Positions 51,554 to 54,435 of a stretch of DNA of 64,000 nt are shown here, in pieces. Position 1 is the stretch's first letter. Every line of letters starts with the position of its first letter. Made by a program: the position numbers and the translations under genes. Origin of the DNA: Microbacterium sp. BK668 (GTDB lineage: Bacteria; Actinomycetota; Actinomycetes; Actinomycetales; Microbacteriaceae); NCBI RefSeq assembly GCF_004362195.1, contig NZ_SNWG01000003.1, positions 50,244-114,243 on the forward strand, given 5' to 3'. The notes under the pieces were generated by a model that searched no databases, was not told the origin of the DNA, and saw only the letters and a list, made by a program, of their open reading frames with translations.

Positions 51554-51559
51554 TAGCTT
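51554..51559 (+). promoter_or_regulatory. -10 element (TAGCTT), leaderless start of the unknown/DyP operon
   Basis: TAGCTT fits TAnnnT and ends exactly 6 nt before the ATG at 51566; no Shine-Dalgarno is visible. It would drive the coupled pair 51566-54240. Confidence 0.5.
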
Positions 51560-51565
51560 CCGAGC

Positions 51566-52501
51566 ATGGCACTCGCACGGTTCTCGCCGCCGGGCGGCAT
51601 CGACGACTCGGGCGGCGACCCGGAATTCCTGGGACGCTGGGACGAGCTGGTGAGCGGGCTCATCGCCGCGAGCACCGAGCTCAGCGGGCGAGGCGCGTAC
51701 GTGAACCCCGCGCTCGGCGAGATTCCTCGCGAGCGACAGCGGGCCCTCACCTGGACGGGCCTGTCGCGGCCACTGCTCGTCGAGCACCGCGACCATCGGC
51801 GCGCGGCGTACGCGGCCGCCGAGGACCGGGCGGTGCAGATCGAGTACCTCGAGTGGCACGTCGAGCGCCGGGACGGGAAGATCTCGGCCGTCACGTTCAC
51901 GTGCGAGACACCGGAGTACTGGCGGCTGCTCGCCGAGATCCACCCCGACGTGGTGCTCGAGCGGTACCGGCAGCTCGTGTCGCCCGACGTCCGGCGGGAG
52001 GAGCTGTATCCCGGCGGCGAGTACGACCCCGGCAACCGGTGGAACACCACCGACGGGGCCGTCCACTACGTCATGCCCATCAACTCCATGCGAGACCTGC
52101 TGGGGGTCTCGCAGGAGATCGAGCCGTCGCAGCACGCGGACGACGGGTACGACGCCCTGCCGTACTCCCGCAAGACCGGAGCGGATGCGCGGATCGACTT
52201 CGACCTCTGGGCGATGTCGCGACAGGGGCTGCGCATCGCCACCGACGACCCGCCGGGGATATCGATGATCGGCTGGGACGACTCGGGCTGGACGCGGCCC
52301 GACGGACGCCCGGTCGGCGACTACTGGACGATCGTCCGGGGCGTTCGCGGTGCCGCCCTTCGCGTCGTCTATCGCGTTCCCGCGAGCGAAGGATTCGTGG
52401 TGGGCGATCTCTCGATCGGTGGCCGGCCCGTCGAGTTCGGCGCGCAGATCGCCGAGCACATCACCGTGGCCGCCCACGTCGTCGCGGGAGGGCGGTCATG
52501 A
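51566..52501 (+). CDS. Unknown protein coupled to a DyP-type peroxidase
   Basis: 311 residues with no recognised domain. No signal peptide or membrane helix. Several dense, conserved-looking blocks rich in aromatics: ALTWTGLSRPLLVEHRDHRRAAYAAAEDRAVQIEYLEWH, VTFTCETPEYWRLLAEIHPDVVLERYRQLVSPDV, ELYPGGEYDPGNRWNTTDGAVHYVMPINSMRDLLGV and FDLWAMSRQGLRIATDDPPGISMIGWD. The stop TGA overlaps the ATG of the DyP gene (ATGA), so the two are translated together. This suggests a partner, substrate-delivery or product-processing role; could also be an independent enzyme. A leaderless-type -10 lies in front. Confidence 0.72.
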   Translation: MALARFSPPGGIDDSGGDPEFLGRWDELVSGLIAASTELSGRGAYVNPALGEIPRERQRALTWTGLSRPLLVEHRDHRRAAYAAAEDRAVQIEYLEWHVERRDGKISAVTFTCETPEYWRLLAEIHPDVVLERYRQLVSPDVRREELYPGGEYDPGNRWNTTDGAVHYVMPINSMRDLLGVSQEIEPSQHADDGYDALPYSRKTGADARIDFDLWAMSRQGLRIATDDPPGISMIGWDDSGWTRPDGRPVGDYWTIVRGVRGAALRVVYRVPASEGFVVGDLSIGGRPVEFGAQIAEHITVAAHVVAGGRS

Positions 52502-54240
52502 GCGGAGGAGCGGAGGCGCTCGCGGGGCTCGGCGCTTCCCCCGTGGCGCGCCTCTCGGGGATCACGCTGCCGGAGCCGCCGTCGGCCGAGCGCGCGTCGT
52601 CGGGACTGCTCGGCGACGGCGAGCCCGATGTCCCGACGACGACGGATGCCTCGGCCGAGCCGCTCTTCGATGCGGCGGCCGCGTCCGACATCCAGGGCAA
52701 CGTCATCCCGGGGTTCAACAAGGACCACCAGCGGTTCCTCTTCTTCACGGCGACCGACGTCGACCGCGCCCGCGCGTGGCTGCGCCAGCTGGCGGGCCGA
52801 CTGTCGAGCATGCAGGAGGTGCTCGACTTCCGGCGGGAGTTCCGCCGGGAGCGGCTGGCGTCGGGAAGCGGTGAGCCGACGAGAACCGCGACGTGGACGG
52901 CGTTCGCGCTGTCGGGGTCGGCGGTGCGCAGGCTGCTCGGCGAGGATGCGCTTCGGCAGATGGGCGACCAGGCGTTCCGGCAGGGGATGGCGGCCCGGTC
53001 GACGTACCTCGGCGATCCCGCCGACCCCGGGGTGCCCGGGCACCGGGAAGGCTGGCGCGTCGGCGCACCGGGCGCTGAGCCCGAGTTCCTCGTGATCGTC
53101 GCGTCGGACGCCGCCGCGGACCTCGAGGACGCGGCATCCGATCTCATCCTCGAAGCCACCGGACACGGCGTCGCCCTCGTGTTCGACCAGCCCGGCGAGA
53201 ACCTCCCCGGCAATCTCGCGGGGCACGAGCATTTCGGCTTCAAGGACGGCGTATCGCAGCCGGGCATCCGCGGCACGACGGCCGATGGCGAGCACGTGAG
53301 CCCGCGGTACCTCGACCCCCGTCACCCGCACTCCCGGATCTTCGGCAAGCCGGGGCAGCCGCTCGTGTGGCCCGGTCAGTTCGTCGCGGGCTGGCCCCGG
53401 CAGAGCCCGGCCGACCCGGTCGCGCCGGACGGGAGTGCCGACGCGTTCCCCGCCTGGGCGCGCAACGGCTCGTACCTCGTCTTCCGCCGGCTCACGCAGG
53501 ACGTGCTCGCCTTCTGGGACTTCGTCGGCCGCGCCGCACGGGCCCACGGCACCGACCCCGTCCGGTTCGCCTCGATGCTCGTCGGCCGCTGGCCGAGCGG
53601 GGCGCCGGTCTCGCGAACCGCCGACAGCGACGACCTGGCCCTCGCCGGCGACGAGTTCGCCCACAATCACTTCCAGTTCGACGACGACACCAGGCAATGG
53701 ATGCCGAGTCCCGCCCTCGCCGAGGCGGGCTACTCCGGCGACAGCCACCCTCGCGCGCGGTCGGACCTCTTCGGGCAGGTGTGCCCGCTGGCCGGTCACA
53801 TCCGCAAGATGAACCCGCGGGACGGCGGCACGGACTTCGGCGCGCCGGCGGACACGTTCCTGCGCCTGCTGCTCCGCCGCGGCATCCCCTTCGGACCCCC
53901 GCTGGCGGGCGTCGACGATCCGTCGGCGGAGCTCGTCGAGACCGAGCGCGGCCTGCTGTTCGCCGCCTACATGACCTCGATCGAGGATCAGTTCGAGTTC
54001 GTCGTGCGGCGGTGGGCGAACTCGCCCGTGCAGCCGAACGTCGGCGGCCACGACCCGATCATCGGTCAGGCGGACGTGTACGGCGACCGCACGCGGCATG
54101 TCGAGGTGCCGACGAGTGCGGGCGAGATGCGCCGGGTGGAGATCCCCTCCGAGTTCGTGACGGTGACCGGCGGCGGCTACTTCTTCGCGCCCGGCATCTC
54201 GGCGGTGCGGGACGTGCTCGGCGCGTCCCCACCCGGCTGA
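52498..54240 (+). CDS. Large DyP-type heme peroxidase
   Basis: 580 residues; the ATG overlaps the preceding stop. Hallmarks: distal Asp250 in HEHFGFKDGVSQPG, the heme-ligand His434 in CPLAGHIRKMNPRDGG, the fold start SDIQGNVIPGFNKDHQRFLFFTA, and LVFRRLTQDVLAFWDF. Common bacterial DyP proteins have ~300-450 residues; this size is nearer to the large, high-activity class. No Tat or Sec signal is visible, so it acts in the cytoplasm or in a compartment; no encapsulin gene is nearby. It oxidises dyes/phenolics with H2O2; the physiological substrate is unknown. Confidence 0.9.
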   Translation: MSGGAEALAGLGASPVARLSGITLPEPPSAERASSGLLGDGEPDVPTTTDASAEPLFDAAAASDIQGNVIPGFNKDHQRFLFFTATDVDRARAWLRQLAGRLSSMQEVLDFRREFRRERLASGSGEPTRTATWTAFALSGSAVRRLLGEDALRQMGDQAFRQGMAARSTYLGDPADPGVPGHREGWRVGAPGAEPEFLVIVASDAAADLEDAASDLILEATGHGVALVFDQPGENLPGNLAGHEHFGFKDGVSQPGIRGTTADGEHVSPRYLDPRHPHSRIFGKPGQPLVWPGQFVAGWPRQSPADPVAPDGSADAFPAWARNGSYLVFRRLTQDVLAFWDFVGRAARAHGTDPVRFASMLVGRWPSGAPVSRTADSDDLALAGDEFAHNHFQFDDDTRQWMPSPALAEAGYSGDSHPRARSDLFGQVCPLAGHIRKMNPRDGGTDFGAPADTFLRLLLRRGIPFGPPLAGVDDPSAELVETERGLLFAAYMTSIEDQFEFVVRRWANSPVQPNVGGHDPIIGQADVYGDRTRHVEVPTSAGEMRRVEIPSEFVTVTGGGYFFAPGISAVRDVLGASPPG

Positions 54241-54282
54241 CCGTCACGGGTAACGTGTGGGGACAACGTCGAAGGAGCTGCC

Positions 54283-54435
54283 ATGTCGTCCCCCCACGAT
54301 CACGTTCCGGCGCCCGATGAGCCGACGGTTCCCGAGCTCGAAGAGGACGAGACCGTCGCGCCGCGCCCCGAGGAGGAGATCGCCGACCGCCTGCGGGCGA
54401 AGCCCGATACCGCCGACCACACCCGGCACGGCTGA
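54283..54435 (+). CDS. Small acidic hypothetical protein, 50 residues
   Basis: AAGGAG lies 6 nt before the ATG. The product is very acidic (MSSPHDHVPAPDEPTVPELE, then EDETVAPRPEEEIADRLRAKPDT) and probably disordered. It starts 42 nt after the DyP stop on the same strand and so may belong to that operon. No family recognised. Confidence 0.5.
   Translation: MSSPHDHVPAPDEPTVPELEEDETVAPRPEEEIADRLRAKPDTADHTRHG

Follow-up and report, generated by a model that had tools for sequence, protein, structure and literature searches.

The stretch of DNA analyzed here, 64,000 nucleotides of Microbacterium sp. BK668 (NZ_SNWG01000003.1, positions 50,244–114,243; hereafter the window) from a genome of 3.73 Mb in 7 contigs, contains two overlapping genes on the forward strand. 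The first (51566..52501) encodes a 311-amino acid protein with the Pfam label PF26676, for which no solved relative or fold match was found, and the second (52498..54240) encodes a class V-like DyP-type peroxidase of 580 amino acids. The stop codon of the former (TGA) and the start codon of the latter (ATG) are merged as ATGA, a 4-base overlap, exactly as described in the initial annotation of these two open reading frames (ORFs). The nearest matches of the genome are found in Microbacterium. We consider the PF26676 protein to be very probably a dedicated functional partner of the peroxidase, and we lean, with less assurance, toward a two-protein peroxidase module in which this partner likely assembles with the DyP and handles its small molecule.

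Peroxidase and partner

The assignment of the longer ORF to the DyP family was borne out by scores over the cut-offs of PF21105 (49.7 bits, cut-off 27.5) and PF20628 (26.2 bits, cut-off 20) in Pfam and of TIGR01413 (123.9 bits, cut-off 100.5) in NCBIfam. The top of 20 matches in the PDB is 7anv, an ancestral D-type DyP (E = 2.1e-55). Judged by family profiles and motif residues the protein is a DyP-type peroxidase, and the best match to 7anv, together with a score far under the cut-off of the EfeB profile, suggests that it is class V-like. It is the single DyP of the window genome by TIGR01413.

Conservation of DyP residues was counted over 36 aligned rows, which represent 35 distinct loci (the window DyP was entered twice) and include the larger piece of the divided DyP gene of locus L006. 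H434 (53797..53799, forward strand), which we take to be the heme-iron ligand, is present in 36/36 rows, and the same motif is aligned in 7anv and 4au9. R460 and R461 (53875..53880, forward strand) are each present in 36/36 rows, and one of the two is presumably the distal arginine from the alignment to 7anv and 4au9. The aspartate of the GxxDG motif, D250 (53245..53247, forward strand), is likewise found in 36/36 rows; its role and the importance of the distal arginine in DyPs are described in the available excerpts of a 2021 review (PMC8197335). The retention of these motif residues predicts function as an H2O2-dependent heme peroxidase.

The initial annotation had also called the peroxidase unusually long. 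This stands insofar as the protein has a stretch of ∼62 residues ahead of the part aligned to 7anv, as well as inserts in its body, but no additional Pfam or NCBIfam domain was detected in the extension or the inserts. Class V DyPs (formerly C/D, the classes being those defined in the excerpts of PMC8197335), such as 7anv, DyP-type peroxidase I (4au9), and DyP2 (4g2c), have the family and the GxxDG aspartate, histidine, and arginine motifs in common with the window DyP. In contrast to them, the window DyP falls in a clade of its own among those tested, distinguished by the N-terminal extension, the inserts, clade-specific residues, and a PF26676 gene beside all tested clade members.

The partner and all of its listed relatives (120 per search) bear the precomputed label PF26676.1 in the protein database, and a search with the PF26676 family gave 652 hits. 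The earlier statement that the protein has no recognizable domain therefore needs qualification: no function or fold was found, but the protein is catalogued. It had no match in the Pfam copy searched, which apparently lacks the PF26676 model, nothing exceeding the cut-off in NCBIfam, and no match in the PDB as a single sequence, while its profile gave four PDB matches with E-values of 0.63-0.73 only. Its predicted structure is confident (pLDDT 92.6), with no structural match found in the PDB. The profile search suggested for it at the outset brought out neither a known function nor a recognized fold.

The aromatic blocks of the partner, initially proposed as a conserved core, do contain the invariant residues E114, Y118, Y153, N157, and G164, and the nearly invariant N160. 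Conservation was compared between 36 DyP-linked rows and 11 others, which include two second copies beside short DyPs. A first core segment (residues 91-97, with Q91, E93, Y94, E96, and W97; 51836..51856, forward strand) is kept at 97-100% in the DyP-linked rows and at 100% in the others, and the same figures apply to E114 and Y118 of the second segment (residues 111-118; 51896..51919, forward strand) and to D207, R258, R266, and P272. The third segment (residues 153-167, with Y153, N157, N160, G164, and H167; 52022..52066, forward strand) is kept at 97-100% in the DyP-linked rows and at 64-100% in the 11 others.

Occurrence and inheritance of the pair

With the partner family alone as query, 29 loci were recovered from genome contigs, and a DyP ORF lies directly downstream on the same strand in 29/29, in two cases in pieces (L006 and L013). 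These relatives span the Actinomycetota, Pseudomonadota, Bacteroidota, Planctomycetota, Acidobacteriota, and Cyanobacteriota. L136 and L137 were treated as repeats of L005 and L003 and counted once. The doubt raised initially, that homologs of the partner might seldom be found next to DyP genes, is dispelled for this branch, although DyPs are not the only neighbors across the full family (see below). In 21 of 30 loci, the window included, the two genes can share xTGA in a 4-base overlap; four share one base, one has an 11-base overlap, and four are gapped by 2, 9, 53, and 262 nt. Two loci are irregular: the DyP of L006 is divided between two frames, and both genes of L013 (Aldersonia sp. NBC_00410) look eroded, as if lost together, with the partner match limited to residues 58-308 and the DyP in short pieces.

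Among plasmids, 25 records contain a partner relative. Six of the 12 examined are linked to a DyP and six to a protein family that we designate U; the other 13, four Paracoccus records among them, fall outside the examined set, and in one of these (H16) the partner adjoins a DyP match (H22) by coordinates. Every partner gene with an inspected neighborhood adjoins either a DyP or U, a set that leaves out the 13 plasmid records and two weak partial matches (L128 and L129, E about 6e-4 over 56 positions). The converse, DyP-led search of plasmids gave 81 records, and among the 60 listed the partner is found beside 7 of the 8 top-ranked DyPs. The exception, L084 of Methylobacterium bullatum, is also absent from the 25 partner records. 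A profile search of the lower-ranked plasmid DyPs L085 and L087-L091 found the partner within 5 kb of 0/6. Occurrence within the window's own lineage is patchy, the pair being present in 3/198 genomes of the genus, own included. Across 396 genomes of the order the partner was found in the window's genome only and some DyP match in 19 (own included), and across 396 genomes of the phylum (two scans taken as one set) there was a DyP match in 17 and a partner match in four.

Phylogenetic analysis of 57 DyPs placed the 34 paired sequences on one side of a branch with support of 99/97 and the 23 unpaired sequences outside it. The unpaired set includes four DyPs chosen as the best non-window matches of the phylum DyP search; without these four, support for the branch is 96/95. 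Pairing marks a DyP clade in this sample. The paired rows come mostly from the partner-led search, so that unpaired members of the clade may be under-sampled, the DyP-led plasmid search being the main guard against this. The trees exclude DyP matches shorter than about 330 residues, DyPs that the profile missed (L046-L050, for example), and further loci from a genome already represented, and the DyP tree in addition omits the two-frame DyP of L006, the broken, short DyP of L013, and the second DyPs of L080 and L081.

Partner and DyP distance matrices are correlated at 0.915 over 33 of the 36 pairs (L006, L013, and L027, a near copy of L026 in the DyP tree, were left out), a value reached by 0/2000 permutations (best 0.578), and 18 of 30 splits are common to the two trees. 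Both trees unite Variovorax with a Gemmataceae metagenome-assembled genome (MAG), and a second grouping common to them comprises two Bacteroidota, a Kiloniellales MAG, and an Acaryochloris plasmid. Because these cross-phylum groupings are shared, the pair seems to move as a unit, and it looks to have been transferred between phyla as two genes together.

A −10-like hexamer, TAGCTT (51554..51559, forward strand), lies 6 nt 5′ of the partner start codon, where the initial annotation had recognized a leaderless-type promoter. The pattern TANNNT occurs 6-8 nt before the partner ATG in 11 of 12 actinobacterial loci inspected (the window and L002-L011, the exception being L012), and was not clearly seen in three inspected loci of other phyla. 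This conservation fits a single leaderless transcript for partner and DyP; the promoter is plausible, its use being a prediction. The window's pair looks free-standing because it is flanked upstream by a DUF3072 gene on the opposite strand (PF11272; 51161-51454) and a long ORF that we read as a GTP-type phosphoenolpyruvate carboxykinase, and downstream by an opposite-strand ORF that is presumably ABC-transporter-like. The DUF3072 gene was not found beside other paired loci. A small acidic ORF of 50 amino acids (54283-54435), preceded by an AAGGAG-like site, had been put forward as a third gene of the system. The ORF exists, but when 35 paired loci were searched by tblastn the only matches were two at chance level (E = 0.036 and 0.93), neither of them downstream of a DyP, and as it is not conserved beside the pair it was dropped as a component.

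Partner genes linked to family U

Twelve of the examined partner genes lie directly after, or are fused to, a member of family U, which is ∼550 amino acids long (L062, L065-L068, L072, L080-L082, and L133-L135, the last three being genomes of one family). No Pfam or NCBIfam model scored U over its cut-off, and the PDB gave no sequence match to it. Fusions of U with PF26676 are found in P0195, P0221, and P0228 and in L067 of Azospirillum, and the PF26676 domain of this branch is also fused to phospholipase D (PLD; L062 and L066) or to a subtilase (L082). No natural fusion of partner and DyP was seen, though no search was aimed at one. Models of known anti-phage defense systems (PADLOC) matched none of the partner, the DyP, and one U protein; matches were limited to the subtilase (L082) and PLD (L062) parts of the fusions, to models of those enzyme types. 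Since the core residues of the partner are kept in both branches of the family, the function of this core, as far as it can be read from sequence, seems independent of the type of neighbor.

Two loci from the phylum of the window, L080 and L081, combine both arrangements, with a U-partner pair facing a second, diverged partner gene directly before a shorter-type DyP (PF20628, 62 and 58 bits). Tentatively, and with more doubt than belief, PF26676 might be regarded as the shared subunit of an undescribed class of two-component oxidative enzymes, in which a class V-like DyP or U, sometimes fused and with subtilase or PLD as add-on, would be an interchangeable partner performing the chemistry, PF26676 would hold or convert the substrate type, and both pairs would cooperate in L080 and L081.

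The L081 cluster is flanked by intradiol-dioxygenase-like and R2-like-oxidase-like genes, and on rhizobial plasmids several U-linked genes have S8 or S53 peptidase genes and PLD genes in their vicinity. The plasmid loci L071, L072, L068, and L069 have neighbors rich in redox and heme genes by annotation or scan, comprising an animal-type heme peroxidase, an FMP-type heme-binding protein, a LodA/GoxA-type oxidase, a tryptophan halogenase, and ferritin-like proteins.

Proposed function and alternatives

The initial annotation had suggested a new two- or three-part oxidative system, of which the two-part form is the best reading and the third gene has fallen away. In such a module, a bicistron driven by the leaderless-type promoter would be translated first into the PF26676 protein, with coupling across ATGA then yielding the DyP, so that the two would be made together. 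The partner would then, most likely, assemble with the DyP. The pair is predicted to reside in the cytosol. The DyP has no evident export signal, its N-terminus, read by eye, containing neither an RR motif with a hydrophobic stretch nor any other evident Tat-like signal. The partner may have a ligand or active site of its own around E93, E96, E114, Y118, N157, H167, R258, and R266, and we prefer the reading in which it prepares, holds, or further converts the small molecule oxidized by the DyP. That it is an enzyme or a substrate-handling protein, and not purely structural, we rate as an even call. A stable complex of partner and DyP is somewhat favored, and no more than that because a conserved neighborhood predicts direct interaction imperfectly, with a precision of 55% at the best threshold according to the available excerpt of one study (PMC6941341).

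Several observations weigh against the two-protein module. For the nearest unpaired DyPs, L121 and L084, no partner was found nearby, and a DyP just outside the clade therefore manages without one. Partner and DyP trees differ in 12 of 30 splits. The partner core is also kept in the 12 loci of the U-coupled branch and is thus not specific to DyP binding, and no cofactor motif, solved homolog, or named relative points to the reaction of the partner. A scan of 20 flanking ORFs found no recurrent neighbor besides the pair, leaving no pathway to hint at the substrate. This last observation also counts against the idea that the proteins serve one pathway without ever touching, the overlap only securing equal dosage, since no other pathway gene recurs round the pair. 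Such an arrangement, to which the predicted nature of the complex and the gaps of 2, 9, 53, or 262 nt in some relatives lend some weight, strikes us as distinctly unlikely. That the genes are chance neighbors, or that one is an old hitchhiker without functional link, found no support and is extremely improbable in the face of 29/29 loci in six phyla, largely congruent trees with cross-phylum transfers, and the clade boundary.

The main rival, which we judge somewhat unlikely, casts the partner as a noncatalytic assembly, stabilizing, or gating subunit (a chaperone, lid, or inhibitor) whose earlier synthesis would let the DyP fold onto it. The order of partner then DyP, with a possible 4-base overlap in 21/30 loci, and the co-inheritance of the two proteins would suit such a role, and the clade-specific residues of the DyP, which include R258, R270, W291, W320, K437, and P513, could make a docking face. 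However, the dense conserved polar residues of the partner resemble a pocket and are just as well preserved beside U, and to our knowledge DyPs generally need no such helper protein. The invariant aromatic residues of the partner (Y94, W97, Y118, Y134, and Y153) and the one-to-one pairing would also be expected were the partner the protein substrate of the DyP, its tyrosines and tryptophans being oxidized or cross-linked into a cofactor in the manner of oxidases matured by a helper heme enzyme. There is precedent in a DyP required for GlxA maturation (known to us as a reference title in PMC8197335), but Y94, W97, and Y118 are fully kept outside the DyP-linked branch, mostly without an adjoining DyP, and we regard this explanation as improbable.

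The two-protein module that we favor bears on a wider question. The natural role of many bacterial DyPs is unsettled, and these enzymes have often been assayed alone on synthetic dyes. A conserved partner marking a whole DyP clade implies that the functional unit there may be two proteins, and the PF26676 protein would offer a direct route toward the true substrate of that clade. The pairing would also provide a first functional context for PF26676, a family of hundreds of members with a confident model and no fold match found, and for family U. In the open-access literature the term “PF26676” was found in 0 papers and no report of a PF26676-DyP pair was found, the latter being weak evidence of absence; the peroxidase is of a known kind, whereas its partnership with PF26676 and the partner itself appear to be undescribed.

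Contexts for DyPs recorded in the 2021 review (PMC8197335) comprise iron operons of the EfeUOB/FepABC type, packaging as encapsulin cargo, and, for class I members, Tat export, and the words “partner” and “adjacent” do not occur in its text. According to the same review, the class I peroxidase EfeB of EfeUOB is likewise a DyP in an operon with nonperoxidase proteins, class P DyPs packaged in encapsulin likewise have a dedicated protein partner, and the DtpA/GlxA/Sco system of Streptomyces likewise involves a DyP, needed there to mature another enzyme (PMC8197335). The window DyP differs from EfeB in scoring only 29.8 bits against TIGR01412 (cut-off 428) and in being coupled to a PF26676 gene. 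Encapsulin of family PF04454, the one encapsulin family tested, had 0 matches in the window genome in a search that was positive in 3 of 14 control genomes, and no match to a solved chain was obtained with the partner model. DtpA is a Tat-exported class I DyP (PMC8197335), in contrast to the window DyP with its lack of such a signal on reading and its coupling to PF26676. The initial remark that encapsulin, EfeUOB, and Tat contexts are lacking holds for PF04454 and for EfeB and, on reading by eye, seems to hold for a Tat-like signal; no search for EfeU and EfeO was made elsewhere in the genome.

Other DyPs encountered in the searches depart from the architecture of the window DyP. The close unpaired DyP of L121 (5330-7018, reverse strand) has a Tat-like start, RRKFLAGLGGAAAS, as read by eye, in contrast to the statement in the review excerpts that Tat-exported DyPs are all class I (PMC8197335). 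The partner-linked DyP of the Sinorhizobium meliloti SM11 plasmid (L070, 6971-10498) carries a long C-terminal leucine-rich-repeat part with Pfam LRR matches. Two long proteins without PF26676 (L087, 2316-6644; L089, 3405-6398) have a C-terminal DyP preceded by a large N-terminal part without assignment, which in L087 gives a P450 match under the cut-off.

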